The notes under the pieces are model-generated. The model was not told the origin of the DNA, searched no databases, and saw only the letters and a program-made list of their open reading frames with translations. Both the position numbers and the translations under genes were made by a program. A stretch of 64,000 nucleotides of DNA from Pochonia chlamydosporia 170 (taxonomy: Eukaryota > Ascomycota > Sordariomycetes > Hypocreales > Clavicipitaceae): contig NC_035790.1 in NCBI RefSeq assembly GCF_001653235.2, forward strand, positions 7,192,001 through 7,256,000, given 5' to 3'. Shown here piece by piece: positions 20,382-63,971 of this stretch (its first letter is position 1; each line of letters begins with the position of its first letter).

Positions 20382-22114
20382 ATGGAAACAACATTGATAT
20401 ACGCGGTTGGGTCTGGGGCCCTATTCGGCCTCTGTCTTCTTCGCCTTCCTCTCTACTACTTTGTCCGGCTTGCCTGCCCGCTACTTTTGGAGCTTCCGCG
20501 CCTCGCACCAATCAATGCCATAGTTAAATTTGCATCTAGATTAATCACTGAACATCTTACCTACCCAACTACTCTGCGTCGAGGCATGTTCTTCGACCGT
20601 TGGAGTCGCCGCGACACATTACTCCTGCTGGCTTACTTTGCGGCCAATGTGTCATGCATCCTAGTTCCCCTCCCCAGTATTGATCAGGTTTATCGTCGCA
20701 CAGGTACACTTTCGGTTATCAATGTACTATTTGTTTTTGCTGGACCCCACCTGAGCTTCCTTGCCGATCTACTTGGGGTGTCGTTGCGCTTTTGTCGACG
20801 GCTTCACGCATCTGCCGGGATTATGACTTTCGTACTGGCAATATTCCATTCGGCGTTTGCAGCAGCTTCTCGTAGCAACGTGTCCTTAGAAAATCCTCGG
20901 AATCTTTATGCGCTCATAGTAAGAATTCACAATTACGACTGTTGGGAAGTGAATACTGATGATGCTAGGCGATCGTGTTACTTTGTGCCCAGTTAATTCC
21001 TTTGGCATTGCGTCAGCTCAATTACGAAGTTGCCCTCCGGATTCATCAGCTCTTCGCCGTTGGTCTTGCCTATGCGACCTGGCGGCATATACCATCTACT
21101 GGTCTCTTCCCGCGGCTTTACCTATATATAGGAGGAGGTTTATTTCTTACATCTTGTGTCATTTTGTTCACCCTCACTTCGTATCGTAACAGTTTAGGCC
21201 TCTCACGAGCTAGAATATCGTATGATCTGGGCACGATCAAAGTGCGCCTACACCTTCGCAAGCCCTTACAGGTAAAAGCTGGACAGTACATAAATTTGTG
21301 GGTACCTTCGGCCAGTCTGTGGTCCTTTACACAGACACATCCATTCACAGTGACATCTTGGTCCAACGACCACCAAAATTATTTGGACTTGTTCATCGAA
21401 CGTGGTCGAGGGTTCACGGAGGACCTGTTCGACCTGTCGGAGTACGGACCTACAACAAGCATCGTATTGTTCAGTGGACCACATGGAAAGCAACTCCCAA
21501 TCCACAATTACGAAAATATCGTCATGATGGCTACCGGATTTGGTATCGCTGCCCACTTGCCCTATCTTAAGAAACTAATCCATGATCATCACAGCCATAA
21601 GACGCCAATTCGTCGGATTCATCTCATTTGGCAAATAGACAAGCTAGGTATGGTACCGTTTTTATTACCTGAAATTGACTAACAAAGCCCAGACGTAGGC
21701 ATTGCCGCTCAAGAACTACTTAACGAAGCACTGGCGGAAGATAAAATGGATGGTGACTACGTACGTACTCAAGTCAAAGGATGAGACGTCTTGTATTGAT
21801 ATCACTTCACAGATCCTCCGCATTTCCCTATATTCAGAATCAGACGATTCTTGTGAAACATCTTTTGGCAGAAGAGCCACTCTGCATCGTGGTAAAATAC
21901 CACTGAGAGACGTCATTGCAGCAGAGCTCGAGGAGAGGCTTCCAAAGAGCAGAACGGTGGTATCCGGTAAGACACAACTTTCCATGATCCGAGCATCTTT
22001 TAACACTAAATGTCAGTATCGGCCAATGGAAGCTTCCGGGATGAATTGGTGGAAGTCATGCGGAATGTCCGGAACAGTAACACAGATTTAATGTACACAG
22101 AATATCAACCCTGA
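20382..22114 (+). CDS. ferric reductase-like transmembrane oxidoreductase (FRE/NOX type), 503 aa
   Basis: Five exons: 20382-20918, 20993-21647, 21693-21760, 21813-21966 and 22017-22114, with introns of 74, 45, 52 and 50 nt. Several hydrophobic segments span about residues 5-240. Two His pairs with the spacing expected of bis-heme ligands are visible, His142/His156 and His197/His211. HPFTVTS at 295-301 is the FAD-binding motif. A TGFGIAAHLPYL segment is the pyridine-nucleotide-binding loop, and the end (SANGSFRDEL, then EYQP) matches family C-termini. The expected reaction is NAD(P)H-dependent reduction of ferric iron at a membrane. It is somewhat short for the family because the extracellular N-terminus is minimal. 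No break is seen. It ends 122 bp from the convergent pseudokinase gene. Confidence 0.85.
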
Positions 22115-22236
22115 GCAGGCTATCTAAGATTGCAGAACTGCCACGAGTAAAGTACTATGCTAGTTATTTCATTTTGGTTCTCAATAAAAGTTTCGCTTCT
22201 TTTCTGTAAACATTGAGATCATTGGCATTCGTATGT

Positions 22237-23296
22237 TTAAGGATGAAATTTGTATCCGCGATCAACCCAAATGTGTACAAGTGATATCATACCGGCGAGC
22301 CGACTTTTATGCCAAGGAAGTTGCAGTAGTGAATGCTTTGATTGTTAGTATGTATCTTGAGGGAGCTTCAACATTCATACCTTTTTCAGTGATTCCGTGC
22401 TTGATGCCCTCTCCATGTCAGAGACGAATTTGAGTCCGTCCGGACACTGCGGTATCCCGCCTGGGCCGTCGGGCTCATCTTCGTCGATATAGCCTTGTAT
22501 CAACTGTATCGCTATGCGGCGCAGACCTTGCACATGCCTTTTGCGGTCTGAGCCACCCTGAACATGTTCCTGTGCCCCTGAATATTGTTAGACGATTAGA
22601 CTATAATTGCTACTATTTGACTCACATAGTTTCACGTTGCCCGCGGTGTCAACTAGAATGTTAGAACATGTAAGTTGAGTGTGTTCCAGACAATGATCGT
22701 CCAAATACACCAGCCCGTCGACGATCTTTCATATCGTCAGTAGAAGTCGTGTCCGGCTTGAGAGTCCGGCGACTTACCTGTCCCAGGATAGAAGCCAACC
22801 TGCAGTCATCCATGAGCGGATGGCCAGCAAGTTCCGAGAGTGAGAGCGGCATAAACTCAAAAGCAATAAAAGATTCTCCGTTGGTGGAGAAGAAGTTCCT
22901 GACCGGGACGAAGTTTTTGTGATTGATTCGTTGTATGTATTGCATGCATGACTTAGCCTCAGCATTGGAGAAAGACTTTACAATCACAACAGGGTTATGA
23001 TCTGGATTAGAGTCTTTCTTCTTGAAAACCTCCTCGGCCACTTGGAAGTAATCACTAGCTCCAAACTGAAGGCTATAGAGTTTAATGTAGCCCGTCCAAG
23101 GAGACTTGGGCTTCTTGGAAAGAGCTGCAGTTGTTTTGCCGTGGGGTGTCTCGCCCTGCTGTGGAACCTTCTTCAAGCGATTTTGCGCGGGACTGTTACT
23201 GGATACACCGGCATTGTGCTTCGTTTCAGGCTGGCGGCCACTGGGTTGTGTTCCCAACCTACCTAGATCAATTCTAGATTCTCTTTCGGAAGCCAT
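22237..23296 (-). CDS. protein-kinase-like (pseudokinase) gene, 304 aa
   Basis: On the minus strand the exons are 23296-22778, 22725-22626, 22577-22381 and 22335-22237, with introns of 52, 48 and 45 nt. The start is the Met of MASERESRIDLG. Another ATG lies 57 bp upstream. After a basic, Gln/Lys-rich N-terminus (about 1-75) comes a divergent kinase N-lobe: an FQVAEEVF strand, VVIVKSFSNAEA and FEFMPLSLSEL. The catalytic-loop position reads LEHTQLTCSNIL, without the HRD Asp, and the VKLW position lacks DFG. Catalysis is therefore unlikely. The C-terminal block (SLLQLPWHKSRLAGMISLVH) recurs in the gene at 51751, with the same intron layout. It shares a 240-bp divergent upstream region with the DUF3723 gene. 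Possible sensor or scaffold role; function unknown. Confidence 0.7.
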
Positions 23297-23536
23297 TTGT
23301 GCGGGTATAGTTGAGGTGAATTTTTGTCTCTGAAGCCCAAACAAATTTAGCAATTGAAGGGCACATTCAGTGGAGGGTGTTTGTGACTTTTATAGACGTA
23401 AGCCAGGGTGTTGTGCAGGTGTGGCATTGACAACCAACAGGCCAAAAGCTAGCCCACTTACACTTATAAAATGCCTTCCCCATATTTCTATCCTCATTCC
23501 ATAAAATATCCATCCAAATACACCATATTTACGACT

Positions 23537-26500
23537 ATGCGCAACACTGCTTTCGGAGTTATATCGAGCCGTATACGAGCCGAAAAGGCTCTCAAATATC
23601 TCGGAACGGCTCAGATTGAACTTGATGTTCTGTCTTTTCCAAATTCTGACGGGCCTGATGTCAATAACATTGAGAGGCTAAGAAAGCTTTTCAGATTACA
23701 GCGTGATTTCAAACCTGGCGAGCTACAAAACAGGATACCTGCAGTAATTGATCAAAATCGGCTTCATGACGCCCTTACGGACTCTGCGTTATCGCTGGAG
23801 GCATTGCTGCCAATTGATCAAAACTATCCAAAACTTGATTTCCCTCCTGGGTTTCAACTGGAATGTCTCCGAGGCGAAGATCGAGTAGAGGCAGTCAAAG
23901 GTCTCTTCAGGTCGTCCAGTCAACGCTGGGTCGTGGATCTTTTTGCTGCGGGTTTGTAAATTGTCACTTAGTACACGGCGTCGGACAGTTGGGCTGACCA
24001 AAAATAGACATAAGTATCGAGGCAAAACGAGACATAGAAGAAGAATATGGAAGCGAAAGAAAATTGGATGATGGAGAGATCTACTACAAGATACGCAAGT
24101 ACCAAGGAATATTTGGGCAGGAAGACCCCTACTTTGAGCAGCGATGGTGGGCGCGGATTGCCACGTTGCCGGATGCAAAGACTAAAAAAAGTTGCCTTGA
24201 TCAACTTATCGCACATCGCAAATTCTCACGGGCATTTGACGCTTTCCATCACATCCCGGCTCTGTACTCTGGGCTGAGACTGAGTGTGGTGGGCAAAATG
24301 ATATCTACAAGATGTCATGAAGTACGTAAAATAACTACTTGTACGAGGGGGTGCATTGCTAATGAACAGGAACTGCTCGCCTACTTGAGACATATTAAAG
24401 CCTTTTGGTATTATATTTTTGACGGAAATGAAATGGCAATGGAAAGGCTCGACAGAGAGTCAGTTCAGGCCTTGGAACATAAAGCACCAGGGGCTTGTCA
24501 GAAAGAAGCCCGGCTGTTGTATGGCCGGATTCGTAGTGGTGATATCCTCGGCCCGTTCAGTGACGTGGAGAGGGAGCAAATCTGGTTGAGACTATGTTCC
24601 ACTACCACCGAGAGCCTGATCCCGTCACTACAAGGATTCTTTGAGAACCTCAAATACATCAAACTGGCGGCAGACTGCATGAAGAGGCTGGTGAGGCTGG
24701 AAGGCAAAGACACCATCCGACATGCTCTGGAAAATGCGTATCTTGATGGGGATCAAAGTAGTGACGACTGTTTGGTGCAAGTTTCTGGACCAGCCATGAA
24801 ACTGGTTCGAGCCAGTGGAATAGATAACTTCGATGTGCTGTACCGACAACTTTGGCTCTTTGCGATACGTGAACATGCCGACATGCCTGCCGAAGTGAAG
24901 AGAAAAAAATCAGGCGCGGGGACTGCGCACGCCGACGAGACTGTGTTGTTTCAATTCGCTTCTCTGGCACATAAGCTTGGATTCAGGACCGACGAAATCG
25001 ATGATATACTGCGACGTAGCCCAGATCGGGAGATCGCTCGTCGGCTGCTTATCACAGCACGCAAACCGGCACTGTTCCAATATGAGGACATTGAATCGTG
25101 CATTACGATGGTTGAGAGTGTAATAGCAAGGGCTCGACCAGTACCAAATGACAATGCGGAGAATGAGTATGTCATTGAGGACGACGGCAAACCTCCTGAG
25201 CGAAGTGGACCGCCAGCTGTGACGGACATGGCTCGAGATAAGCGTTTCATGTACTTAGACGTACTACATGGCGCATTGCCAAGACAAGACCCGAATTTAA
25301 CGTCATTATTCATTCAGAGATCCACGTATTTTGCATTTTTTGGAAGAGATATTGGGCTATGCATTGAAAATATCAACGCAGCACAAAGCGTGCAGGGAGC
25401 AGTTGATGTAAATTTACAGTTGGAAGGTAACCCGAACTACCATTCAATTCAGAGCCGGGCGGAGTCAGAAGTACGTGTGGCAGAGGAAGGGCAGCAAAGG
25501 CGATTAGATGATATTACACGCAAGGTTGCAGACGCAGAGTCCCATCTAGAGCATCTCGAACGGAAGCAGAATGAACACCAGGGCACTATCGAGCAGCTTC
25601 AGAGCACCATAACAGCCAAACAAAACAGTCTTGAGGCCCTCAGGCGCGAGGAGGCCGAACTACAAGAGAGGCTCCATGGGTTTCGGGGAACAGAAGCGGA
25701 GCAAATCATCAGACTCGAAACCCTCCAAAACAACGTGCAGGACAGACAGTCTCAGATCAGCGAACTCGACAGGAGGCGAACGGATTTGGGCGAGGAGATA
25801 CGGCTTGATCTTCTTTCAGCCGACCGTCAAAACCACAGCGCTCAGGAAGAGGATCAAAGAATTCGATTACTGCAGCTTACCGATCAAGCGATTGAGAAAC
25901 AGAATAGTGTCAATCAGCTTGCGGCTCTTCATCGGCAGAAAGAACAGGAAACACAACGACTAGAGGAGGAACGACAAAGGCTACAGTCCGTGGTGGACGA
26001 TCTCACTTTGAAGAAGAGCCTGCTGAGTGAGGAAGAGCAAGCCAGAGCGGCATCGTTCGCAGAGACGGAAAGGGAGCGAAAGTCTGTAGTCGATAAATTG
26101 AGCGCAAAGGAGCTTGAACTCCGACAAAATATCGACTATCTGGAGACATGCCTACAGCAACTCAAAAGGAAGATCAACGATGCCACGGAGGATGAGAAGG
26201 TGTTGCGGTTGACGGTTGAGCGCCTCAGAGAGACAGAAAACACTGTCGCCGGTAGCGATGGAGTGCAAGAGAGAGGTCGAGCGGCCTTAGGTACTTTGGT
26301 AAGGCAGACGCTGAACGCGAATGAAGAGCCAGAAGACTTCGATACGCCTGACGAGTCCCCTGTGGGACCTTCTGAAGTAGCTGGGCAGGTGATTCGACAG
26401 GCAAGGCCGGTAAGTGTAAACGGTGCCTTTCTGGCTCTCACCTCAACGCTAACATGTGCAGCAGGTACCACTAGACGCGCCACTAGAAGAAGTGGCCATT

Positions 26501-26767
26501 CAATTCAAGCTCTTTGAGGATGGGGATTGGAGGGTAAAACATGAAGTGACTGTAGACCCTCGAGAACCTTCCGAGGTCAGGAGAGTTGCTAACAAGTATG
26601 TTCGGAAGAGGTTTGGGTTGTTCAATAGCAATAGTAAAGCCCTCACTCCAGAGACATGTTTTGAGCGAGTGACATCTAATGGCACAAACACGATCCATCT
26701 GATTCCGGAATGGACAGTCAATAGAAAAGGACCTGGAGAAGCAGAGCCTCGCAAGCGCAATAGATAA
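23537..26767 (+). CDS. DUF3723 family protein, 1024 aa
   Basis: Exons are 23537-23951, 24008-24321, 24370-26409 and 26462-26767, with introns of 56, 48 and 52 nt. The start at 23537 leaves a TATA-like TTATAAAA at about 23463. An alternative ATG is at 23471. Residues about 10-540 match DUF3723: ALKYLGTAQIELD, the PPGFQLECLRG block, DDGEIYYKIR, the WWARIA block and the LIPSLQGFFENLKYI block. Residues about 610-870 are a long coiled coil. The last 100 residues form a second conserved block (VAIQFKLFEDG...TCFERV...TNTIHLIPE), followed by a basic tail. Function is unknown. The family is a recurrent accessory gene of Starship giant transposons. The gene is intact here, with a decayed relative at 46.9-48.9 kb. 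Confidence 0.85.
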
Positions 26768-28292
26768 TGATATCCCTTTAAACAAGATATGCACCATTTG
26801 CCAGTCTACATTTTGTGCCTTCCGTGCAATGCCAGCACATTATTTGGGACAACATCGGTCGGACAGCGGACTTCCAATACTACCCGGTGTGGGATAGGGT
26901 ACTGTGGATGGTGAGAACTCGCTGTCCGAATTGATGAGATAGCACATATTATGATATCCAATGAGCTATGGTGTCTCACTTCTGCTGCCCAAGAGTGTAT
27001 GATATCCAGAGTATGCTGTCATAAAGCTGAGGTTAGTGCGGTTTTACTCTGGCCAATGGGAGTTGGTTCCTGCTTCATCATAGAGACCCAGAAATCGCTA
27101 AGGAGCATCCCACACCGGCATCGGTACTGTGGTTGGGGTTGGTCAAAAATATGAGTACAAAAAGCATGGGGCAGCTTGACTGGGAGAGACAAGATGGCCG
27201 CGAGTCGTCAACATGCTCCCTAGCTGGTGACATGGCTTGGCTTCGTCACGTACATCGCATCAAATCCACCAAAACAAGCACTAAGTCCTAGAGTTGTGAT
27301 CCTTCCGGGCATCGCCGAGTTACCCAACCTTCTGCGGGTGCGTTGAGCCCATCTTGGTTAGCAGCAGGCGCACATGATCCGTTGCCGACATTGTAATATA
27401 TGAGGTGGTGTTGATGGATTATGATGGTCCATGGTAGAAACCTGCTCGAGAGAAGGTGCTCTGTTGGAAACCTGCTATTCGTTACAAAATAGACTTTTCT
27501 ATGATCATGCCTCGTCTAAACACTCACCTGTTGTACTCCTATTGCTTCTGTTGCTGGTTTCCATAGTGTAAGATAGCTCGTCTAGGATTGATACGTGCGC
27601 CTGAAACGTGGGATATCGCATATTAAATATTTGCCCTGTTGTTAGAAGTAAAATGCTACGTCACATGGTCAGGTCATGATCTAACGCAAGAGCGACAGCA
27701 CCTTCATGACCTACCGAGATAGTGATACTGCACCGCTGTAAGTAGCCTCCAGTACCCTGTTGTATTGCTCCCCGGTCTGGTTTGTGATCGCAACTTGGCT
27801 CAATCGTACAAGAGGGCCAAAATGAGGATCTTAGGCGTCACTTAGCGTATGACAGTCCACCTCATGAGCAATCTAGGTCGCGAACTTCTCGGCACATAAT
27901 GCGGATGATTCCGGCCGGGCTGTGGCTGCTAATAGGACTCCCACAGAATTTCTTACCAGGAATGAGCAGAGCAGGCTCTAGAGATTATTGCATCACGTGA
28001 TTGACCAAAGCCGTCATATAACAGATGAGGTTTGAATAGGTCTTTGTACGTACATGTACAGTACTAACAACGAGTTCCAAGAGAGAAGCTTAACTTGCTT
28101 CTTTCCAAGAGTATTTACTAATACCTCCTCATATTCCCGGCCAGGCTTACATCCAAAACATGCATCATATTAAATGTAATTTCACAGTGGCCAATTTGGG
28201 TGATATGGAATCGGAAATAACAAGACGAATAGTGTTGCGGGACCAATAGTAACAGTCACCGAATGCGCCTTCGGTCCAATTCATGTGACATA
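26768..28292. other. 1.5 kb without a recognisable gene
   Basis: No coding signal, repeat or RNA gene could be supported on either strand. Confidence 0.5.
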
Positions 28293-29341
28293 TTACAACG
28301 TATCGCCGGCCTCGTGTCTGATGGCTACGGCAGCATGAATCAAGCAAGTGGCCTGGCAGGTTGGCAAAGAGGTGCGCTTCGTCTCGTTTTGGAGTAAATT
28401 GTTTGCTTCTTGTAGAAATCTTTCAGCCATATCCTGACGTGATATTATACCAAAGAAATCTTTTGGCGACAGAAACTAGTAATTAATTGTAAGTATCCAT
28501 AAAAGTATTTCAGCACCAAATGGTTCAAACTCACACATTGCTGAGCACATATGGCGTTTACAAGCAGCGGGGTACAGGCAGTTGCCACAGAGGGATCCCC
28601 TCTCTTCATTTCATAAATAAATATAGAGCGTGGTATCGGAGGAAATACATATAAGTAGTCGAACGTGAAGTACTGGGATATAAGATCCGAGACCACATCG
28701 TCGCCCGCAACGACAGTCCATGGCAATGCTTGAACATCGACAACACAAACGCTTGGTGTTTTAACAGTGACTTCATCATTTTCTTTGGACAAACTGGGAG
28801 ACGCTGAATGCCCAGCTTGCGAATCATCGCCTTGACCCAAAAATCTCGGTATAGTAATCGGAATGTAATCGCTACCAGAGCGGAAGTTTAAGAAGATTTG
28901 GAATGCTTCGTCCTCCGTCGCGGTACGGATCAAGCTGTAGAACTTTTTGAACTGATGGTTTTCCTGCCTCAATTGTCTGACTTCCATGTCCAGTGCGTCG
29001 TACCTTTTTCTCAAGGCTGAAGAACGGGACTCGCCCACGTTAGCATCGTAGTGGCATTCAGTGCCATTCTGGGCACAGCGATTGCAGATTGGTCTCTGTC
29101 CTCCACACTGTCAAACGCAGGAATAAGCTGACGTACACATCTTGAAAGGGAACCAAAGGGCATATCGTACTTTTGCCTTTTTCCGACGGCACTTTTCGCA
29201 AGCTATTGTGTTTACAGAACAGGTACGTGGAGACGAGGCAGGGCCATCAGAGTCAGTCAATGTGGTATGGTCTGTATTGGCATCAGATTCTCTGGACCCG
29301 ACCTTGCGAGGTAACAAGCGCCTATACGGGGACGTCATCAT
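28293..29341 (-). pseudogene. C-terminally truncated Zn2Cys6 transcription factor
   Basis: On the minus strand the exons are 29341-29171, 29107-28535 and 28475-28293, with introns of 63 and 59 nt (donors GTACGA and GTGAGT). The zinc cluster is complete and split by intron 1 in the usual place: IACEKCRRKKAK, then C...CNRC...C. It is followed by a coiled linker (RKRYDALDMEVRQLRQEN) and the start of the fungal-specific factor domain (FDYLYVFPPIPRS...NAICAQQC). The third exon continues the domain (DMAERFLQEANNLL) but meets a TAA at 28293-28295 soon afterwards. The 308 residues are about half the usual length. It could be a shortened regulator or a decaying gene. The adjacent gene at 29706 runs the other way. 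Confidence 0.65.
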
Positions 29342-29705
29342 GACGACACCAGACTGGACGCCCTGGTAAGCAATGATATGTAGTAAAGTTGCGTTAATGA
29401 GGTGGAGAAAGGGCCAAGCACTTGATGACCGGTTAATGCTCGGAAACGTTCAGGCATTACAAAAATATACTCGCTAGTCACCAATCAAATTCAGGCAACC
29501 TTGCATGACCAAGAGTTTACGCTGACCAATTATGGCGCGTGAGGTCAAGTATTTGGGCACCTCCCGGACCCAGTTTAATAGGACGCTGCCAACTAACGTA
29601 ACTCCAACAGGGGTCTCCAGTCCAAAATTCAATTGTCACAACTAAAAGGCTACACGCCCGACTCGAATTGTAACCGCTAATTCACGACGATCCGAACTCT
29701 CGACG

Positions 29706-32236
29706 ATGGACAAAAGCCCCACGGAAACCACACTTCATCGCTCGGCCTGCACCGAGTGCCAGCGTCGAAAGCAGAAGGTACTCATCTTCTCCACCTCAAT
29801 AGGTCCGAAACAGTTGAACCTAGGCTGTGACGCCTTACTCATGGTCGCCTCAACGAACGATTAATATTCCATGCACGAGCATATGACGGGAACAACGTCT
29901 TTTGCAATTGCTAGTCGCGTCCTTTTCATGTACTGATAACACGTACCACTAAAACCGTTGGATCTGACAGTCAACCTAGTGCAATCGAAACTGGCCTTGC
30001 AATCACTGCCATAAGCGCAAAGTCGCATACAAGTGTCGCTTTGGCCACAACCAAATCACTTCCCAACCCAGTTCAAACAAAGCCATAACCCATGATTTCA
30101 GTCGAAAAAGGCAACTCAGCACCAACAATGCAGCGCCGAGAGGCTCCAACCCTTGGGATGCCACAGATATCAGTTTCGCGGCCTTGGGGTATAGCCCGTC
30201 CCACCTCTTTGCGGGCCTCATTTCAAGTCCGACGGCATGTTGCGCCCACCGATTCAGAGCAAAGTCATTCTACAAGAATACATCTTTTGACGGGTATGGC
30301 TGACATAAAATGATAGAGAACACCCACTGAGGCCGTAAAACCCTCAAGGCAACACTATATGGACTCCGCATCATGCCCCCAGCTCAAACGTGCCCTGCAT
30401 CTCCTTCCTCCTAGACCTTACATGGGTGCGTTCATATAACCTCAGAGCGTCCATATCATACGAGTGTGGTGAGAATCTGACACTTCGGACAATAGATTCT
30501 CTGGTGCAAAACTTCTTCAGCCGTACAAACTTCCGTTTCTACCTCATTTACCCGCCTTCCTTTTTAGAAGAATATCGATCATGGTGGTCCCTACGCTCCG
30601 AAAATCGCCCACTTGGATTGCAATGGACTTGCCTGCTACTGACAGTTTGTGCCTGCTCAACACAGGACGCTCATATTGAGCTTCAGCGGAGACTCGAAAC
30701 TGATCTCCGCAAAAGCACGCAAAACCTTGCCGAGAACTATCACAATGCCGCCCGAGAGTTACATGGCGCGATTCCCATTGGGAACAATCATCTTTTAAGC
30801 ACCCAGTCGCTGCTTCACTCATGTTACTGGCATATGTCAGCAGCACAATTTGTCGAATGCTGGCATTTCCTTAACACTGCTATCCGCGAGGCTCAAGAAC
30901 TCGGCATTCACACAGGAACTGTTACCGGTTACATGCCTGAATTCGACCTTGAAATGCGAAGAAGAATCTGGCGCGTCCTGGATACATGGGATTGGTGAGT
31001 GTTACCTTGGTTTGATTGATGTCTTCCAATGAGGCGAACGTGGTTTTGACATGTTTCTACCAAAGGCAAATATCCACTTTGCTCTCACGACCGATGCTGA
31101 TAGATAGTACGGACACTGATGTCGGGTTTCCCAATCTCACGCTAGAAGGCTACAACCCGTCTCCTTTACAGCACATGAAATGAAACTCCAGTCCGCATTG
31201 ATAACACAACTTTTCAAGCGGTTTGGGTCACCAAAGAATGTGGCCCGACCTGGCGAGTTTTTGGCATACCAAGATATTATCAAGGAGTGGATGAGCGCTT
31301 CCCGTCGACGTATGCCTTTACCAACACCCATACCGACAGTGACAGGTCTCGGCCCTGGATTGTCCTGCATAGGCATTACCTCCAAACCATGGTTCTCTCA
31401 ATGCTGCTTGACCCCGGCCGAGCCTACCTTATCAAGCCAATGTCAAACCAGTCCCCGCCAGATGAGCTCAAAATCCGTAACGACGGCATTGACTATTCAC
31501 TACAGCTAATGCGTGTCTTACAAGGCTTCTTTGATCATATTTATCCCCGCGATGCCCAAATCCACTTTGTTCTTTTCTACATATGTGACAATGCTGCAGT
31601 TCTTTGTTCGGCTCTTATACACGACCAGAACTCTAGCCTCCCAAAACGACACGATGTACTTAATGCTGTTGGCAATGCCGTCTTAACACTCCAGCGGTTC
31701 AAAACAGTGACGAAAACCGTGAGGGCATCGTATAAGGTTCTGGTCAAAATTGCGCAAAACATCAAGCGACAAGCGCATGAAGCGAAGTCGCCAATCGAAC
31801 CTATGAGAAAGCTGCCCAATGCCAATGAACTAGCACTTGCACCGCCCAGTATGACTCCCAAGGAGAGAGTAGTCGCAAGAAACACCGGATCTATGGAAAC
31901 GAACGCGCATTTCTCTCTTCATATGTCACTGTCTACCTGCCCTGGTCCCTCTGCTAGTGGTGACAAATCGACAGTCCGTTCTTCTCCGATCTCAATGGGA
32001 CTGGAAACATGATCTCCGAATCAAATTCTATGCATTACAACTGCCTGCAGTTGAATTATTCACCATCATATGACAACATGACACTGCCAACGACCGACCT
32101 TTGCGATGACGGGGCTAACTTTGACAATTTTGACAGCTTTGGCGCGATTACAGAGAAAGACTTGGATGATTTGGCGGCATTGTGGAGTCATGAGAGTACA
32201 AACTTGCACTTCATCAACCCTGAAGGAGTAAAATAA
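29706..32236 (+). pseudogene. Zn2Cys6 transcription factor broken by several frameshifts
   Basis: Exon 1 is 29706-29777 and exon 2 starts at 29980 after a 202-nt intron. The cluster has all six Cys (ACTECQRRKQK, then C...CNHC...C). The frame then stops at about 30302. From about 30370 a typical factor domain is readable, with introns about 30426-30495 and 30995-31065: FYLIYPPSFLEEYRSWW, LHSCYWHMSAAQFVECWHFL and EMRRRIWRVLDTWDW. At 31175-31184 a 5-bp tandem duplication (ATGAA twice) shifts the frame. A second shift lies at about 31291-31294, after which RPWIVLHRHYL and KIRNDGIDYSL are intact. A third break near 32010 separates an acidic Asp/Phe-rich tail (32009-32236). Most of the protein is well preserved, so inactivation looks recent, or the breaks are sequence errors. 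Confidence 0.7.
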
Positions 32237-35350: not shown

Positions 35351-35410
35351 TCCAGTCGGTTGCTGTTGGCAAGGTATTTCTCGCGTAACTCATTTCGATA
35401 TTGTAAGAAG

Positions 35411-52625: not shown

Positions 52626-53845
52626 AAGTCTCAAAAACAATGGAACTACCGAAAACCCACAAGTAGAGCCTACATAATACCAAGCGTACTGGCTCTCTCC
52701 AATAAATATAGCTCATTTGTCTCAGCCTGTTGTGTCATTACAGCAACGGAAGCCTTTGCGAGTGGACAATTTGTAGCCTGGGTCGGCGGGAGATCTGCGA
52801 TATGGTATGCCTAGGGCGGGCGGCATTCGGGTCTAACGGAGTCTACGCAGTCCTGATTTCACCGCCATAACATCTGCTGCTTGAAATGAAAAAAAAAAAA
52901 AAAATAAGAAGCAACATACCGGTACCCAGGCACACATGCTGTTGTAGACATTACTTTGCCCACTATTAAGCGATTGTAACACTGTATATATAATCGATTA
53001 AGCTGCGCAAAACGTTCAGTACCACGATGTCAACAAGAGGTATGTCGTGCTCTTAACTGGGTGGCTGCAGCGGAGACGTAAATCAGGTCGAGGACCTCGC
53101 ACCCGCTTCCCCCACCCCACCACCTTCATAGAGTTTTCAGAGGCGGTGTTTGCCGTTTGGTCTGGCGGGGGCTTGTGCTTCTTCATACCGAGGTGATGAG
53201 ACAAGACAGGGCTGAGAACTGTGGATGGATGGGCAACTCACAGACTGCAAATGGCCCGTTGCCGGAGACAGATTATGGAAACGTCTGCTCTTATCGGCTG
53301 ATGGGAACTCCTGACAAATGGGTTATTGCATCATCAACGCGCCGCATTGGCTTTGGTGCCTGACTAAAAGGCACTCCACCCAATCTTCAATTGTGGGTCC
53401 TGGTGATGGCCAGCAGTGTCCTGACCAGTCAGGTCGTCGAGCTGGACCAGAGGGATACTGGCCTTCACATCGCATTCATGCGTACAGAGGGGTCCAGGTT
53501 CAGCGTCCGCCCAGATCTTACCAATTTGTTAAGTCTCCACTGCATCTTATCGTGGTCCTACCTAACATTGTGTAAGTAAATTAGCGGACGCTGAAACTGG
53601 ACGGCGCTGTACAGTAAGAAACATTGTCAGATAGGATATGAAAACCGCATCGTGCAGTATTGATCTGTCTCGTTAAGCTTTTGTCCATGTGGACGATTAA
53701 ATAAAAAGCCCGACACCGTCTATTCATACATCTGCAAAGCGTGCGCCCTATGCAAGATCTCCCCCGCATCGATCTTCAGTTACAGGGTATCTAATGGCAC
53801 ACAGAAGACACCATTATTTATTCCCACACCGTCTACCCTACTTTT
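52626..53845. other. 1.2 kb without a supported gene
   Basis: It contains an A tract at about 52888-52904. No coding or RNA gene can be supported. Confidence 0.45.
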
Positions 53846-54197
53846 TCACCTGTCCGATGTTGAGGTTGAGGATTCGCTTGCATGGCGTGCCATTTCTGCC
53901 GCTGTCACTTGTAGAGGTAGTGGAAAGCTGTTTTGCTGTCGCTTCACATTAGTATCTTCGTTAATGTAGATCGCATTAAGGGTTATGCCTTACAACTTCT
54001 TCTGGAGTCAGCGGCCAGCTCTCGCCGCCTGATCTGAACTCATACACCTGACCTTTACGCCTAACCAAGACATAGACATCTGCATGGTACGCTCTATGTA
54101 CGTCGAATCCGCTTTTGACGAATGTACGCCACCTCTTGCGGAAGTTTTCGCTGCTCCTGTCCCTTTTCTTTGGTTTACTTGGTACGGCAGTATGCAT
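53846..54197 (-). CDS. small MADS-box-like protein, copy 2, 97 aa
   Basis: On the minus strand, exon 1 is 54197-53994 and exon 2 is 53935-53846, with a 58-nt intron at the position equivalent to copy 1. Exon 1 is 204 nt in both copies. The MADS-like region (KPKKRDRSSENFRKRW, then HADVYVLVRRKGQVYEF) and the spliced tail (SFPLPLQVTAAEMARHAS) are conserved. The last residues differ, Ser/Thr-rich here and acidic in copy 1. Correct frame across the splice in both copies is good evidence for a real protein. It is transcribed divergently from the large gene at 54797, with 599 bp between the starts. Confidence 0.75.
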
Positions 54198-54796
54198 TGG
54201 GGAGATTGAGGTGGTGGATTTATTTCGTAGAACTCGAGAGGTTCTACCCTCTTATAGCAGACCATTTACCGCCGGCACTTTGTGACATGAGCCTCGACGA
54301 TACTTAGAGCGGTGACATAATTAGAATGCGCTCACCTTTGTTGACAACCATGAGTACACAATCGGACTCACATTGAGTGAAAAGCAGACACCCTCCCTCT
54401 TGGGGCGATTGTGGCATGCGCAATGGGTCTCCGCAAAATGGTGCGTCAACCATTCACGCTCGCCCCGTCGTCCGCCAAATGGTGACGTAAAATCCCATTT
54501 ATCACAAAATTTGGTTTGGCCACTTCGATTTCGTAAATATATTGAGGAGCTCTCTCGTTTCCCTCTTCTCAGAGTGTGATGCGATTTGACAGCATGCGAT
54601 GAACAAAGCGTGCGACAAACATCACGTCAGTACGACCGTCTAGGGAAGGCTCCAGAAGGTGGGGCGGGCTGCCTGTCAGGCAGTTGGGATGGCCTGCATC
54701 CATGTTCCTGAGACCAGGGGAGGGGTATAAAATCACCTGTCAGTCCAAGCCACCTCCATGCAGGATCCTCGACCTGCTGTGCAACCAGTTGTCACA
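54198..54796. promoter_or_regulatory. bidirectional upstream region of the pair, copy 2
   Basis: TATAAAA at about 54726-54732 lies about 70 bp before the large gene's ATG, as in copy 1. The rest is too diverged from copy 1 for me to align by eye. The CCAGGTAC dyad of copy 1 is not evident here. Confidence 0.45.
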
Positions 54797-56437
54797 ATGT
54801 CCGACGACATTACAGCATTATTACAAGAAAAACTATGTGAGCTCACAGATGTCACTAAGGTTGAGAAAAGTACCATTTCCTACTGAACTCAAATGATTTT
54901 CTAACTTCGGCGTAGCTGATTGATTGCGTTTTGAGCGATGACCGGTGTCGACAACTTTTGATACAAAGATTGCAGCCGGCCATTATGCGAGAGCAGCGGC
55001 CGACACTTCAAAATATAAGCCTGAGTACTCCTGCGTCGACACCACGACCTGAACGATTCGTAACAGAGGAGGCTGCGGTGATCGAGAGGTGTGACCCTCC
55101 TCTCTGTGAAAAACCGCCGTGTGACAATGCATCACTTCGTGCCAATTCGCCATTAAGTACTCACTGTGGCGATAATGTGCCGGCCAATCTGAATCCGAAC
55201 GAAGAAGTAGTGCGTGACCGTGGCCAGACGCCCGAGGAAATGAATGCCCCTTCATATCCATCTCCGTCACCAACGCCTAGGCCCCAACGTAGATCCCGCG
55301 TTACCGACGGCAAGGACAGCGTTGCCTCGACCGAGCAGCCGGCCCGTAAGCGCCGACGAACGAATGAAAAAGAAAAAGACACAGAAAGAATGCAAGCGTC
55401 GTCGTCGTCGTCGTCGTCGTCGTCTATACAACCCCCGCGTAAAGTTCGTGGCCCAGGGAAGAAAAAAAAGAAAGTCGTCCCAGAATTTCGCACCTTAAAG
55501 GAGCCACTGCGACGTCAAATTAGCGAATATACTGAGCAGGATGCCATCCGAGACGTCGGTCGACTGATTGACGCCTTTGTGTCCCAGTCAGTTGAAGAAG
55601 CGATGATTGACTCAACGGGCTCTTGGGTGAGCAAAATGAAATGCCACATAGATTTCTGTGACAGACTGCAGGCCAAAGGTAAGGCCTTAACTATTAGGGG
55701 CCTGGTCCAGCGTCGATTCAACGTGCTTCTATTGATTGCCGAGTTTCTCCGTCTCAAGAAAGAAGAGAAGGAAGGGAAGCGATCTGGCGACATTGCATCA
55801 GAGATTAAAAAGGGACTATTCCCAAACAAGACCCGTGGGAAGGCGAACTCTGAGTGGGATAACATTTATCGGGAAGGAAAGGTATTGTATGACGCAGTTC
55901 AAGAGAATGGATTTGGAGTACTCATCTTTCCACTGTGTGGCGTGACTAAGAAAAGGTTCGTGTTACGGGTCCACTCACGGTCCGGGGGCTAACGACAACA
56001 GCTTAAATGGCGTTAGCCACCAATCGATGACTGACTTCATCGACTACATAGACAAGTGTCAGCCAAACCTCAAAGAAAGACTTCGCAATCTGTCTTACAT
56101 TCTGCCCAGATTGATGACTCAGGGGTTGCCACCTGGTGGCTTGGGGGTCGATACGTTGGATCTTGACGGCACGGATGCTATTAATCGCTGTTGCCCATTG
56201 CCCCCTGGTGTTGACGCTGCGGAATTGCATACGGCGATGTCCTTTACAGTCATTCCATCCTGGCCGAAGCAAGCAGCCGTTGATGTTGTGTCCTTTCAGG
56301 ATAACGATTCTCCCACCGACCAGGGAGAACTTCCGTCACAGGTATCTTGGAATTTGCCTTCAGAAGCAAATGGTCTTTATGGCGTTGATTACGACTTGGG
56401 CTCCGGAGATACCTTGGATCAACAATTTTTGGCGTAA
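54797..56437 (+). CDS. unrecognised nuclear-type protein paired with the MADS-like gene, copy 2, 512 aa
   Basis: Exons are 54797-54859, 54916-55955 and 56002-56437, with introns of 56 and 46 nt. Exon 1 is 63 nt in both copies, and intron 2 falls within the same Ser codon after TKK. Conserved with copy 1: MSDDITALLQEKL and TDV at the start, LIDCV-x-x-DDRCR, SYPSPSPTPRPQRR, RKRRRTNEKEK, a nine-Ser run coded by TCG repeats, RGPGKKKK, EPLRRQISEYTE, VLIFPLCGVTKKS, DYIDKCQPNLKERLRN with SYILPRLM, and CCPLPPGV. The C-termini diverge. The pattern of a conserved core with drifting linkers suggests a functional protein under constraint. It is probably nuclear. No enzyme motif is visible, and I cannot assign a family. 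Confidence 0.7.
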
Positions 56438-57750
56438 CTTTTGTTTTGTGATGCCGCAAGCGCAGATCGGTGAATTGCTGTAGTTAGCAGTATTAGTATT
56501 GTATAGTAAGCTGGGTGTTGTATGGTATTTATATGTTTTATTCTCGAAAGAATGCATGCAAAAGTAAAAACGCCGCTCGCTATGGATCTGGAACCTGTAT
56601 CAGCCCGCAAACTGCGGGGATCCTGACCGGTCAGGATCCGCCCAGAGCCTCGATTCAGAGGCTGCAGAGAAATGTGGGGTTGACTTGTAAGGCCTGCAGC
56701 TTCGTGTTCACTTGGACGTGTTCGCTGAGTGATGCTCCTTGCAAGATGTTCACTGAATATGGAACCTTGCTCCTGCCGCCAACTCGTACGACCACACCTT
56801 GTTCTCTGAGGCGTCAGCACCGCCCTGGGCCATGTAACTGTTATGCTCTACGAAACAAATAGTGTCGTAAAAGGCGCAGTGCTACAATCCAATGGCCAAA
56901 ACCGAACCAACTGGCGGCTGTAGCATGCCAATGCGTAGTGCTGTACAAATGCGTAGTGCTGTAAATGCGTAGTGCTACGGGAAGTGTAGTGCAACAGGAA
57001 TGTCGGGAACGTGTAGTGCTGCAGCATGTGTTCGATAGCCGCAGGTGGGTCTCCACATTTCTGTAGCACCACATATTTCTATTGCACTACACATTTCCGT
57101 AGCACTACACATTTCCGTAGTACTACACATTCCCGTAGCACTACACATTTCCGTGTAACGGTTTAAGCTGAATATATGAACAACTAGCTAGACGACTATA
57201 ACAGGTATCTAAAAGGTAAAGAAGAAAGGAAGAGAAGGAGAGCTCCTGAGCTCCACGCAGCTGATCTCGCTTGCGGACAGCGATAGAGGCGAGAGCACAG
57301 CTAAGCCACCATCGGGCTCAGCCTATTACACCGCCACCCACGCCCCGAGTCTGTCCCAGGACAGTTGGATCTCGTGTCGATGAACCAGGCAATAGCTCCT
57401 GCATATTTCACAGGGTAGTCCATATTGACGCTTCTTGAGGGCTGGTCTTATCGAGTATTAGTTGTCTCTGCCTCTGATACTATACCATCCCTGTTGACAG
57501 CTTTCTGTTGAAAGCAAAGCCCCAATTACAGGCCCCGAAAGGTAATCCAGGGTTCTGTATCGGATCTTGGCACTGCGACGTAGAACTACAGTCAGATGAT
57601 AAGAGAAAACGTAATCATGCGACCTAGCTATCTATGTATCCGAATACACGCAAATAATGTGTGGATGCTACTATACAATTATCTTGTTATTCACCAGATG
57701 TCCAGTGACTTCTCATACTGGCGGTGATAATTACGACTCTCAGTGACCCT
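56438..57750. other. gene-less stretch between the large gene and the recombinase
   Basis: The only notable structure is the inverted minisatellite described separately. The segment 57160-57750 shows no coding potential. Confidence 0.45.
56930..57155. repeat. inverted pair of short tandem arrays (GTAGTGCTAC / GTAGCACTAC)
   Basis: The left half (about 56933-57020) holds five copies of GCGTAGTGCTGTAAAT-like or GTGTAGTGC units. The right half (about 57061-57155) holds five copies of the reverse complement, CCGTAGCACTACACATTT, spaced about 18 bp. The core GTAG(TG/CA)CTAC is itself nearly palindromic. The arrays face each other across about 40 bp. They resemble subterminal repeats bound by a transposase or recombinase. 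Confidence 0.75.
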
Positions 57751-60396
57751 TCACCTGGCCAATTTCGTCCTGTGGACTCCTTGCTGGCGCTGTGATTTCG
57801 CCTCCCGGACCATCTGGCGACGTTGTTCCTGTCTCATTCTTCTACGATTTACCTGCTCCGAGGTTCTCAAAAGGACATTGTGGACAGACTTGACATGGTT
57901 TCTGAAATGATCTAAATGCTTAAACGTCTCATTTCTACATTTAGGATGTTTACAAACAAGCGCTTCCCCTCGCTGCTCGATAGCTTCGCGGTCTGTCAGG
58001 TGCTGGTCGTCAAAGTGATCATTTCGTATGGTCGGGCGACACCACTGAAACGTGCGCTCTGCGGCTGTCAATCGCTCGTCGCCGATACAATCTGGACATT
58101 GGCTTGCATGCATGAGAAGAGGGAAGAGGCTGGGCTCGCACCAAGCTTCAAACGCGGGTGATTCTTCCTTGATAAATTGCTGTACTCGGGGTTGGGGTGG
58201 AGGCCTTGGCCGAGTTTGGCTGACTTTACCGGTGTCCCTTTTGTCGCAGAGCGCGACCATCAAGTCGACTGCCTCTATTCTGATACAAGCGATTTGTTCT
58301 TCCGTCAAGTCCTTGGGCTGAAAGCAGAGTATCTCGGACAGCCTGGCGCGTTCGGGAATGACGAGCTCAATAACAGGCTCTTCGTACTGCTCTTCGACCT
58401 CCCCGCGAGCCTGGGCCTCGATGTCCCAAGTTGGACGATGATAGAAGTAATACTCGCGATAGTCTTTGGCAATTCGCTTCTCTCGCTCTGCCTTTTTCGT
58501 TCTGATTTTGTCTGTGAGCTCCCGTATTTTGTCTTCATGTACACTACCAGCAATCCGATACTGGCCCTGCTTGAGTTGCGCGCGCTCTTCTTCTAGTTCC
58601 GTGATATCTGGATCAGGTGGCACCTGAGCCCATACTTCGTCCGGCACCATATCGCGGGTTGCTCGAGGGTCTCGGGTGAGGCTCACGTGGGCAAACATCC
58701 GAAATAACTGATCCTGCTTCTCCTCTTCTAGGAAGGCATTTTGGAGGTCGAACCTCGCAATCTCATTCAAGTACGCACTAAAGAAGGTAGAAAACCTAGG
58801 GTCATGCCGCATCATCTGGTCACGAACTGAATCGGGCGCGTCACCTACCAAGTGAATTACTTAGCATACACTTCCCGCAGGATAGGCGGCGGACCAAAGG
58901 GAGAATGGTACGATTCACTTACCATCGGCCGCATTGGCGGCGCCTCTGCGAGCAAATCTTGGTGTCCAAGCCTTTTCATGCCCAGAATCGAGACTTTGCC
59001 GCCCCATGTCGTAACTCAGCTTTGAATATAGCATAGCCTCGTTGGTAGAGAGGTCACAGCCTCGAACGCGGCGGAAAACTGGCACCTTCAGCATCTCCTC
59101 TCTCCACCGAAGCGGCGTGCACTCGGTCGGACCCCAAACCTGTGATTCGAACACACGGGATGCATTGGTCAGGCTTGGTGCGTCGAAGGCGCGGTCATGC
59201 AACGCAAGGGCGAGAACCACTGTAATGGGGCAAAAGATCAACTTCTTGCTCGGAGTGAAGAAGAAAATAGTCCTGAGATGCATCAGTAGGTTTACCACTC
59301 AAAGGTGCAAGTGATTGGAATCATACGGCTTGGGCTTTTTATCGGCTCCCTTGTGATGAATGAACTTAATCGCCATAGCCAGGACAGGCAGTCCTGTGAC
59401 AGGATGACGGACAAGCATCATAAGAATGTCCTCATAACAAAGAGCCTTTGGCCGTCCGCGCTTTGTTGTTTCCATGGAAAGCAGCTCCTCTACCTTCTGC
59501 GACTCTTCATCTAAGGCATCTGCGGCATCTTCCGAGGCATCATCGGCTGACTGGACGACCTTCTGCCCGAATAGCTTTTCGATGGAGCCGTCCTTGGGCT
59601 TCTTCCTTTCACCGTTTACTAGTTCGGCCGGCCGCGCTCCAGTATAGCAAAGAATTTGGTAGCAGCCGGCCAGTTGAATGCGATGCCGCTCGAGGTCGAA
59701 TGCGCCGGTGTCGTAAGCGATATTATACGTTAGAATGACTCGCAGACTGTCGACGTTTAGGACAGCCTTCCCATCAATGTTCGGCGCACGGAGGCCAAAT
59801 CTAGGAACTAATACATTGTGGTGGTACTGATTAACTGTTAGTGGGTGGTTAATGGTGAGGCTCAATGTGGGAGGATATCGTTGGCACCTTATACACTTCT
59901 TTACTGTCGTTCCGATTCATGTATTGGCCCGTGACCGTCGTGTACAGCTGCTGGAACTGGCGCACGTACTCCTCCGAAGTGCCCCACGACTTGACATTGT
60001 AGTTACCGCACACGAAGAGGAAGAAGTCCATCGTAGTTTCTCGAGATAGAGACCGGATCGTCTGCTCCCAGTCACCAACTTTATTCTCATCGCAGTACCT
60101 GTATCGTCTTCTATTAGCAAGTCGTATTCCTGATAGACACTATAACGAGGTGCCACAAACCTTTTCCACTTCTTGAAAATGCCAGTGATATTGATCATGG
60201 TCTCTTCTGAGTACTTCGGCTTGACGAAGCGGACTTTGCTTAGTCGCTTCCGATTCGCAGCATGTTCCTCTGCTGAAAGAGGTGCCGGCCTTGGAACCCT
60301 CCGTTGCGCCTCTTTGGCAGCAAAACGCTCGAGGAACTTGGCATGGTGATTCGGCGGGCCGTTAGCCCTTGAACGACGTACCACTGTACCAGGCAT
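57751..60396 (-). CDS. DUF3435 tyrosine-recombinase-like protein, 796 aa (candidate Starship captain, leftward)
   Basis: On the minus strand the exons are 60396-60161, 60098-59888, 59826-59327, 59272-58923 and 58844-57751, with introns of 61, 61, 54 and 78 nt. All junctions keep the frame. The recombinase core is visible. Arg214 in CYTGARPAEL is followed by the KFIHHKG and FFTPSKK blocks, then Arg425 in FARRGAAN, His446 in MMRHDP and Tyr457 in FSAYLNE. This fits the Arg...Arg...His...Tyr order of tyrosine recombinases. DUF3435-typical text follows (DPRATRDMVPDEVW, PPDPDITELE). A C2H2 finger (CKHPKC...H...H, about 730-753) and a basic tail end the protein. In Starships such a gene sits at one end and reads inward, so cargo would lie to the left. 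No defect is seen. Confidence 0.85.
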
Positions 60397-61476
60397 CGTG
60401 GGATGGGCGAAGGCGTTCTAGTGAAGGGAAACGTGCATCTATTGCACTCGCGGTAGACGTGCAAAAGATGAGAAAGCTTACGAGGGGAACGTTGTTGGTG
60501 TTGCCGCCCTTTATACACGGAAGTCGATCATGGGTCACGGCTCACTGGCCCGAGCCAGCTTGAGCGGTTAGCTATATTTGGCTTTCAGTGATGACGAGAG
60601 CGCTCAGGGACGGTTTCCGCCACTGACTAACCGCGGCAATCATTTAGTCATGAATGCATGGTGGCGGATGGGTTTCAGACAGGGGTGAGTCGGTGCCTGG
60701 AAGGTACAGTGTACCTGGTTTGGGCCAATGCCCCTCATTGTCTGCTACCACCAAAAGCGGCGGCATGAACCACCAGATTCGGGGCTCAGCAGCGCTTCTT
60801 GCATTTAAAGAGTAGTATATAAGCTATATTTAGTATATTTATATAGTATATAATTTTTACTATTTATTTATATAAAATATATATTTATATCTTATATACT
60901 TATAAAGTTATATACTAAATAAAGTCTAGAGCTATTTAAATATAAATGCTATTATAAGATAACCTCTAAAATATATAAGATATTAGTTTACTTTTTATAC
61001 TAAAATATAGCTAATAAATAATACTATATACTATCTTAAACAATGAGACGGCGATTTCACCACCGGTTGTAGTGGTCTTTCCCACCAAGGCTGGTGGGCA
61101 ATTTGCCCAGGATCCAGCGCCGCTTTAAGGCCTCGCGGCTGCTTCTGCTGGTGGGGCTATTACACCAGCCAGCTCCATGTACCTCTAAAGTCCTCCTTCG
61201 CCCCACCAGCCATGCCCTGCAACAAAGCTCAAGCTCTTGAAGCAAGCACCTCCAGGCAAGAACTAGACATCAAGGCTGCCTTCTCGAAACCACCTTTCGG
61301 ACACACGAATACGAAGGCACAACCACCAAATATGGCGGCATTGCACGGATCGTACTTAAGGGGCACTCACCCCGCCGCAAGGATGGTTGGGATTGCAGCC
61401 TTTGTCTACCTCTTTGCTGCAGACACTCGCCACGCCCAACCGACTCCCTACCGCCTAGAATCAAAAGCTTCCAGCC
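60397..61476. promoter_or_regulatory. divergent spacer between the two recombinase genes
   Basis: This 1080-bp interval separates the two starts. It contains a 15-bp near-palindrome, AGGTACAGTGTACCT, at 60702-60716 and an AT-rich island at about 60805-61045. A GC-richer part with CCACCAG/CTGGTGG repeats (about 61060-61210) lies before the rightward gene. If either gene is a Starship captain, that element's end should lie in here. Confidence 0.5.
60805..61045. repeat. very AT-rich island, RIP-like
   Basis: About 240 bp are composed almost only of A and T with abundant TA dinucleotides. Such islands in ascomycetes are typically old repeats worn down by repeat-induced point mutation. No parent element can be recognised. 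Confidence 0.7.
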
Positions 61477-63971
61477 ATGACACGTCGAGCACACTCTTCC
61501 GCTCCATCTTACGACTCAGACGCCTCGTACTCCCCTGAGGACGATGATGTCGAAGATGACATCTTTGACCGGAATGGTGCCGACCGCTCGGAATTGGAAA
61601 CAGACGCGACGGATGTCGAAGATTTAAGCCTTGTTGACGAGGATGGCTGCGACGACATCGACGTCGATGACCAGGTTCAGTACTTCGGAGGAAACATTCA
61701 TCCTCCGGAGTACTACCGACACGCTGTTGAGAGTTTCAACGAGAGCGCCTACGAAACTCAGGACTACAGTGACGGTAGCTTGCTGCTCCTAGACGCCTGT
61801 GAGGAGCAATGGCGCCAGTACGCCGTACAACTTCCTTCTCTTTGCTGGCTGCTAATTTGTCTGCTCCCCGCCCTCTAGATACTGCAAAATGCTGGAGCGC
61901 GACCCTCAAAGCTGTTTTGAGTCTATCTCCGAGTCTAACGCCCTGCGCCTCCTCTATAACTTTTTCGACTGGTCGCTCAATCAGAAAATCGGCAAGGACG
62001 GAAGGAAGAAAAGAGGAACCAGGAAGAGCAGCTCCCTGGGCACGTACTGGAAAGTCTTCCGTCTCGTCCATGAGAGAGCCACGGGAAACAAGCTTGATCC
62101 GAAGCTGAATCGGCGTATGCACAAGGTACGGCCAATCCCTGCCAACGTGAATGTAGGCGGCTAACCGAGTAGGTGCTTCGAGATCTCGCCAAAAAACATG
62201 GTTTAAGCAACGAGAAACGTGCGAATCGTTGTATGACAATCGACGACCTTAAAAAGCAAATTGAGACGACAATCAGCACAACGAAGAAGTCGTTCAAGCT
62301 AGGAGAGCTGCGCATTCTTGCTGTTCTATTTCTCCTCCTCCTCGCACCTGCAGGAGCACGCCCTACGTCCATTTTGCGTATGCGGTTTGGAGATATCCGG
62401 CTCGTGCTGGCGAGGGACCCAGAAGGCGGGCCACACAACATTCTAATTAGATTCACACTGGCCTTCACGAAGACATATCTTGGGGTCAAAGACGCGTAAG
62501 GAGGCAACGGCCTTGCTTTTCATCCTTTTTAGAAACAACTTATTAACATACCGCAGAAAAACTTACCCGGTCCCTGAGAACTTGCATGATCCTTCCTTGT
62601 TACTTAGCCCGCATGTCTTTTTACTCGGCATTTTGTTCCGCCATCGTGCGTTCCGTGCCAAAACCCTCACCTCTCCCGCACAGCTGGCTAATCTCGACAT
62701 TCACCCGCAAGAGCGAGAGTTGCCTCTGCCGTTGAGGGACGAATTGAAAGAAACACACATATTTCGTCGGGCTGTGAAAAACCTGACTGGCTTTGAGTTA
62801 TCTCAGGATAAACCCATCTCCTACCAGATGGTTGCACAGTGGATCAGAAGAGTCGGCGAAGTCTTGGGGTTAGAATATCCCACTATTCCCTACAGTTTGC
62901 GTTACAACGCGGCAAATGAATTCGACCGGAGCGGTATGTCCGGACCAATTTCTTGTCAAGTGCTTTAAGCTTACTCTAGTTGTAGCCGATATAAGTGAGG
63001 CGCTGCGAAATCTTGCCATGGGTCATGCCAACTCGACACCATTCCTGCGCCACTACCTGGGCCGAGAAATTGGCGCAGATACATGGGCTATTCTCCGGCG
63101 ACAAAAACCACAGCAAGCCTTGATTACGCAGGCCTGCAGCGTCGGTCACTCGATAAGCAAACGACGGCCCACGGACCTCACACCTGAACAAGTAGCATCC
63201 GTGAACGGTGATCCCCTAATTAAACGGCTAGAGCGAGACTTGCGACGCCATCGTCAGGGGTCGGAGAAGTACATGGAGCTCCGCCGCGAGTTGCGAAATG
63301 AGAAGCAAAGGCTGAAGAGACAGCTGAAGCAGAAAATTCGGGATGAATGGACCGCCGAACAGGCTGTCGACGACATCGAGCGGCAGTTGCAAGGTGTCGG
63401 TTTTGCTAAGGGAGCGGCCGCGGACACAACTGTCTCTCCTCAGCGACCAGCTCAAAAACGACTCGTGGAGGCTCTCACTGCTCCCCTTGGCAATACACTC
63501 GAGGGTCAATATCGGCGAAGAGACAACGCCATTTGCGCCATCATGGCTTATTGCGTGGTTGAGGAGGGGCAGACCATCCAGCGCCGTACACCCTCTGTCG
63601 AGTCCAGGTCGACCTTTATATCTGAACCACCAGTGAGAGGCCCTCAGCACATGGCTCTGATGTCTGTCTTTGTCAAGAATGAGAAGGAGAGACCGAGGAG
63701 GTGCTTCATTTGTGTTGGCAAAGCACTCACCCTGGCTCCTGAAGACATGGCTGTGGAGGATCTCGTACATCAGTTCTATACTCCGGGGGACCTAAATAGG
63801 CACTTCCGTCGCAGCCATCTAAGTAATATGCAAAAGGACGATAAGATAGAGTGCCCAGCTTGCTGCATACCACTCGAACATAAGCAGCACTTGCTGACCC
63901 ATGCTCAAATAGTTCATGGGATTCACCTGCGTCATCAGCACCATGTTGAAACTGATGGGGTTGTATTTTGA
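61477..63971 (+). CDS. DUF3435 tyrosine-recombinase-like protein, 757 aa (candidate Starship captain, rightward)
   Basis: Exons are 61477-61817, 61879-62125, 62173-62495, 62557-62933 and 62986-63971, with introns of 61, 47, 61 and 52 nt. An apparent frameshift at 62496 is resolved by the third intron (GTAAGG donor). The N-terminus is acidic. The recombinase core shows Arg259 in PAGARPTSILRM, Arg419 in YSLRYNAANEF, His443 in LAMGHANSTPF and Tyr453 in LRHYLGREI. These are followed by the family block SVGHSISKRRPTDLTPEQ and the KIRDEWTAEQAVDDIERQL block. A C2H2-like finger pair closes the protein (about 690-745). The protein is of the type often labelled FluG-domain/DUF3435 and belongs to a clearly different subgroup from its neighbour. 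It is intact and ends 29 bp before the window edge, so any cargo to the right is outside. Confidence 0.85.

Follow-up and report, generated by a model that had tools for sequence, protein, structure and literature searches.

According to the available portions of PMC12289983 and PMC12153272, Starships range in size from about 15 to 700 kb, and the part of PMC12506042 at hand names DUF3723, FRE, NLR and PLP genes as their typical accessory genes. For the Hephaestus family of Starships, the canonical target is given as TTAC(N7)A in the accessible text of PMC12153272. The genomes of Pochonia chlamydosporia strains 170 and 123 measure about 44 and 41 Mb, and 80.37% of strain 170 is matched by strain 123 (PMC5773674, in the sections available). 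A literature search found no paper that deals with Starships and Pochonia together.

We analyzed a window of 64,000 nucleotides from P. chlamydosporia 170 (C1:7192001-7256000, given as contig and position) and searched it against the fungus's own genome (44.2 Mb in 49 contigs). Most of the window probably belongs to one Starship of about 90 kb (element A), standing head-to-head with the first 3 kb of a second one (element B) in a RIP-mutated, AT-rich relic. As far as the literature search shows, this Starship pair is new to P. chlamydosporia, and its kind is already known; what sets it apart is the twin head-to-head insertion, together with a MYB gene that recurs at termini without a captain. 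The initial annotation had read 20382..63971 as one Starship-like gene set. The Starship-like reading is supported and the genes were confirmed, apart from the NLR fragment discussed below, but the stretch mixes two elements, with captain B separate and the left element, as proposed, passing the left edge of the window.

Captain genes and 5' termini of elements A and B

Pfam DUF3435 matches on both strands (57751-59916, minus; 62447-63971, plus) bear out the two DUF3435 recombinases proposed earlier. Captain A (57751..60396, minus strand; 5 exons, 796 aa) and captain B (61477..63971, plus strand; 5 exons, 757 aa) are both intact in gene models from which four short GT..AG introns each were removed, the introns being placed by eye and without transcript support. 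Neither protein contains an internal stop once these predicted introns are taken out. The two tyrosine recombinases are 24% identical over 520 columns and fall in two distant, well-separated clades of a 36-row tree, which comprises captains A and B and 34 hand-chosen homologues without labelled captain families, the Pochonia captain B copy at C3:15326 being left out. By the tree and the best 120 of 185 database matches, captain A pairs with a DUF3435 protein of Metarhizium majus (91% identity), its Pochonia relatives on C2 (83%) and C3 (72%) being more distant. Captain B pairs with a DUF3435 protein of M. brunneum (93% over 92%; best 120 of 174 matches, and the tree), and the copy at C3:15326 is similarly close at 92.5% DNA identity. 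Since the best matches of the captains, among the matches listed, are in Metarhizium, movement between genera becomes testable.

In the own-genome search with positions 57000-64000, similarity to the captain-A copies on C13, C2 and C14 stopped at window positions 60807, 60814 and 60819, respectively, and the aligned copies share TAAATGCAAGAAGCGCTGCTGA before they diverge outside. The 5' terminus of element A, located by these alignments and a motif search, is TAAATGCAAGAAGCGCTG (60790..60807, minus strand), with a CTAC target or direct-repeat motif beside it (60812..60815, minus strand). The start codon of captain A lies 411 bp inside this terminus, and the captain is the first gene. Six exact copies of the 19-base 5' motif were found genome-wide, each with YTAC on its outer side (TTAC in three, CTAC in three) at a distance of 4 nt, or 6 nt in the C3 copy; two further matches with two mismatches (C2:4648354 and C9:33146) were rejected as A-type 5' ends, as their flanks look unrelated. 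No convincing inverted or direct copy of the A 5' end was seen elsewhere in the window. Short repeats of its flank are scattered as if by chance, and one of 8 bp (GAGTAGTA) also occurs at C1:7172455, within the proposed element, where nothing else points to an end.

The 5' terminus of element B (61028..61053, plus strand) consists of an ATAC target motif (61028-61031) followed by TATCTTAAACAATGAGACGGCG, and similarity to captain-B relatives on C3, C5, C30 and C16 begins at window positions 61017-61029. By eye, WTAC is present at the junction in all five B-type 5' ends compared, a set that leaves out a sixth B-type 5' motif at C9:821622. Element B thus combines a captain as first gene, a sharp 5' end and a target motif, and in both elements the captain lies about 0.4 kb from the terminus. 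Captains A and B start two different elements: captain B heads an element of its own that points rightward, and element A runs leftward from captain A. The 3' end of element B was not found in the 20 kb to the right of the window, nor could it be located by comparison with C3:15326, where similarity stops just past the captain gene (at 64067, except for short pieces).

Between the two termini lies an AT-rich, strongly RIP-mutated spacer of about 210 bp (60808..61030), with a TpA/ApT ratio of 1.36 and a (CpA+TpG)/(ApC+GpT) ratio of 0.07. In contrast, the elements are without the RIP signature (TpA/ApT 0.69-0.81), and the 240 bp outside the left end of element A are intermediate (1.07). Two back-to-back elements across a 210-bp RIP relic suggest that AT-rich landing sites are reused, and the head-to-head pair would arise from two independent insertions into one such relic. 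That the DUF3435 and DUF3723 genes are grouped by chance in an accessory region, with no element at all, is hardly credible, since the termini are sharp, repeated and accompanied by target motifs and since both elements begin with a captain 0.4 kb inward of the terminus; all that speaks for it is the absence of a shown empty site.

Two copies of one A-family element were found at different sites, from C13:335592 and C2:6227945 onward. Their DNA is collinear, with 97.9% identity over the captain part, 91-99.7% over the other main pieces and insertions between; because this collinear DNA stands beside different 5' flanks, the A family has moved. The same comparison was tried for reading off the 3' end and gave none in the sequence compared, the copies remaining collinear with insertions past 20 kb. 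By analogy with studied Starships, each captain would recognize the element ends and recombine these with a short TAC-containing target, so that the element would be excised and inserted at TAC-containing, AT-rich sites (PMC12153272, PMC12506042, PMC12289983, in their available portions), and on this analogy we infer that captain A moves element A, the cargo moving along.

We consider it possible, though rather doubtful, that the elements are real and form a decayed cluster in which mobility has been lost. Captain fragments are indeed scattered on C1 (at 7268858, 7442752 and 7469517), and cargo is partly duplicated between element A and the right flank: the segment C1:7257497-7275324 (65.5-83.3 kb in window numbering) again contains DUF3723, ferric reductase, bZIP and Zn2Cys6 along with a fragment of captain A, and five stretches, the ferric reductase not among these, show 75-91% DNA identity to the left side. 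Decay does not sit well with two captains that read intact with GT..AG introns, nor with a RIP signature that is confined to the spacer and absent from the elements.

Putative cargo genes and a nested insertion in element A

Read as a Starship with an intact captain, element A occupies 1..60807 of the window (minus strand), with its 5' terminus observed and its 3' terminus proposed. The proposed whole (C1:7162644-7252807) reaches 29.4 kb beyond the left edge of the window and measures about 90.2 kb if the proposed 3' end is right, which is within the Starship range. The earlier suggestion that the element of the leftward captain encloses the cargo is supported, as captain A is the first gene behind a 5' terminus that is sharp at 60807, and on the left the element would take in the two DUF3723 genes as well as the ferric reductase, to which the distance from the 5' end is about 40.5 kb, provided that the stretch is a single element.

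The ferric reductase (20286..21682, plus strand) was confirmed by FAD_binding_8 and NAD_binding_6 matches above the Pfam curated cut-off in its second piece; the transmembrane domain in its first piece scores below its cut-off. Both DUF3723 genes of the initial annotation were likewise recovered, one at 23453..26517 (plus strand; E 4.5e-120 for the long exon) and the other as a match to profile positions 241-485 of 508 (47017..47871, plus strand; E 5.5e-63). Further Pfam matches in the cargo are the Zn2Cys6 piece (28445-29110, minus strand) and Fungal_trans piece (30339-30998, plus strand) of transcription factors, a bZIP transcription factor (38085..38744, plus strand), a DUF7924 match (6175..6972, minus strand) and a protein kinase piece (8391..8954, plus strand). 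Thus two DUF3723 genes and FRE represent the typical accessory genes in element A, whereas the proposed NLR-type fragment was not substantiated: Pfam detected neither an NLR nor a PLP domain when applied to 36 of the window's 42 ORFs that reach 150 aa or more and to 11 additional stretches. The peptide at 34381-34776, which by eye resembles TPR, had no Pfam match at E 0.1.

Nested in element A is a Mutator-like DNA transposon of 2.9 kb (43251..46122, minus strand). Its inverted repeats measure 78 bp (98.7%) and its 9-bp duplication (GTGTCGTGC) is perfect; 100% identity was reported for two further copies, and the 888-aa ORF at 43398-46064 is the transposase of this recent insertion. Element A also contains a segmental duplication at 94-96% (10175-11469/17019-18314, 14837-15475/18449-19085 and 15776-16918/19351-20523). 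One family of cargo genes, for which Pfam gave no match, is present in two copies (13739-15351 and 54916-56437) that share 63% DNA identity over 950 columns.

The proposed 3' end of element A and MYB genes at termini

The other end of element A, which had not been identified in the initial annotation, is now proposed at C1:7162640, and we regard it as likely that this is the element's own 3' end. At this position, 29.4 kb beyond the left edge of the window, an AT-rich flank gives way to a 3.2-kb recurring sequence, which has four relatives (two on C8, one each on C11 and C5) whose boundary is identical or almost so. In the captain's reading direction, all five copies of this sequence end in AGATTAC and then diverge, and four of the five continue as TTAC(N7)A, the A at that place being common in AT-rich flanks. 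A MYB-domain gene lies 1.2 kb inside the proposed end and faces inward (Pfam 23.5 bits, cut-off 22.9); the flank beyond this end carries an AMP-binding ORF, which stops at a distance of 0.66 kb, and a Cys/Met PLP enzyme at 8.5 kb.

The A-family 5' ends on C13 and C2 match this 3' end read inward, with 22 of 27 bp identical (offset 13 versus 14), an inverted-repeat score reached by none of 3000 shuffles. The window's own 5' end and three others of the A family share just 8 bp with the 3' end, a match equalled in 200-235 of 3000 mononucleotide shuffles for the four ends and, for the one in the window, in 469 of 5000 dinucleotide shuffles. The initial annotation had suggested looking for TTAC-type repeats near 60.4-61.4 kb and at the far left: CTAC is present at the A 5' end, ATAC at B and AGATTAC at C1:7162640, and the direct repeat common to both ends of element A, the 3' one being proposed, is TAC(T) alone. 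C13 and C14 showed neither an AGATTAC end nor a MYB match, and neither was seen, on the element side, within reach of the A-family 5' ends of C2, C3 and C4.

No empty site was seen within this one genome. Copies of the AT-rich left flank on C6 and C7 were rejected as empty sites, the former matching the site on one side only and the latter stopping earlier. Repeated AT-rich sequence of the TACAATA type, perhaps a small transposon remnant, was observed beside Starship sites at L041:400-640, C6:2736699, C7:3021568 and C13:334788.

These end data also bear on an improbable alternative, in which the element of captain A terminates at some point within the 90 kb and the MYB end at C1:7162640 is that of a different, captain-less element alongside it, making the region a composite of at least two elements. 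A composite would fit the identical MYB end type on C11 and at C8:1132860, the two closest MYB copies, which have no detectable facing captain, and the MYB end on C5, which faces a B-type captain. It would also fit the weak inverted-repeat match of the window's own 5' end, the rearrangement shown by the internal duplications and the nested Mutator element, and the 8-bp flank repeat at C1:7172455. However, a motif scan revealed no second AGATTAC-type end between the ends of element A in the sequence scanned, where one loose match near window position 31748 (minus strand) is without the rest of the end; the MYB end is matched by the C13 and C2 A-family 5' ends; and the target motif is of one type at both ends. 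We favor C1:7162640 as the 3' end of element A itself; against this count the MYB copies that no captain faces (10 of 13), the C5 MYB end opposite a B-type captain, and the failure to find such an end on the other A-family elements.

The MYB gene is a recurring feature of such termini. It was found just inside the AGATTAC-type terminus on C1, C11, C5 and, in two copies of which one is degraded, C8, and also just inside a GTTTTTAATAC-type terminus on C3. This second terminus type, ending in GTCGTTTTTAATAC, is found on C3, where it precedes an A-family 5' end by 144 bp and has an inward-facing MYB gene about 2.1 kb inside; a 75.6% similar copy at C2:208883 ends at the same place, with no MYB match in the 1.5 kb of its inside that were scanned, and both continue as ATAC(N7)A. 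A third candidate of this type, C11:226794 (3 mismatches), has no such junction. At C3:5262911-5266600, the MYB gene and the GTCGTTTTTAATAC terminus adjoin the A-family 5' end, and Starship-like elements therefore abut there too. Together, the C3-type and AGATTAC-type termini suggest that a MYB gene recurs as the terminal gene at ends that have no captain.

We tentatively advance, as a distinct possibility, that a further terminal gene is conserved in Hypocreales Starships: it would lie opposite the captain, face inward and encode a MYB-domain DNA-binding protein, perhaps a partner that binds the 3' end or directs recombination. Genome-wide, an opposite-strand captain faces the MYB match within 250 kb in 3 of 13 cases (C5 among them) and in none of the other 10, so the pairing itself receives no general support; this, and the lack of a MYB match for the C13 and C2 elements, speaks against such a gene. 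In this table, positions were entered by hand, exon pieces were merged and the C14 captain span is approximate; of the five captain rows that fall below the cut-off, four were omitted (C30:112473, C12:428035, C9:282981 and C15:675908), as were 4 of 17 MYB rows (C8:1102786, C8:1102688, C1:7395943 and C3:85829). Where the 34 database matches of the MYB protein bear a species name, it is one from the order Hypocreales. M. majus, the source of the best captain A match, could not be named as a carrier of both end genes, being unnamed among these 34 matches. Should the MYB gene prove to mark the end away from the captain, 3' ends would become easier to find.

Comparison with described Starships

The pair in P. 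chlamydosporia resembles the nested and clustered Starships of Verticillium in having several captains in one genomic region, but here two elements form a head-to-head pair about 210 bp apart, a term (head-to-head) that PMC12289983 does not use. The DUF3435 proteins of M. majus and M. brunneum are like captains A and B, respectively, in a comparison of proteins and not of elements. Element A differs from Hephaestus in the MYB gene at the proposed opposite end, which was found in no Starship paper searched and could be described in papers beyond that search. At the 5' end, element A has a YTAC(N7)A-type sequence, and three of six A-family 5' ends carry CTAC in place of the Hephaestus TTAC; the likeness is one of features and not of captain phylogeny. 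Like Hephaestus elements, element A has its DUF3435 captain first and DUF3723 and ferric reductase genes in its cargo; its size would be in range, and the proposed 3' end reads TTAC(N7)A. A nematode-parasitic biocontrol fungus provides Starships with intact captains and one element for which both ends are proposed.
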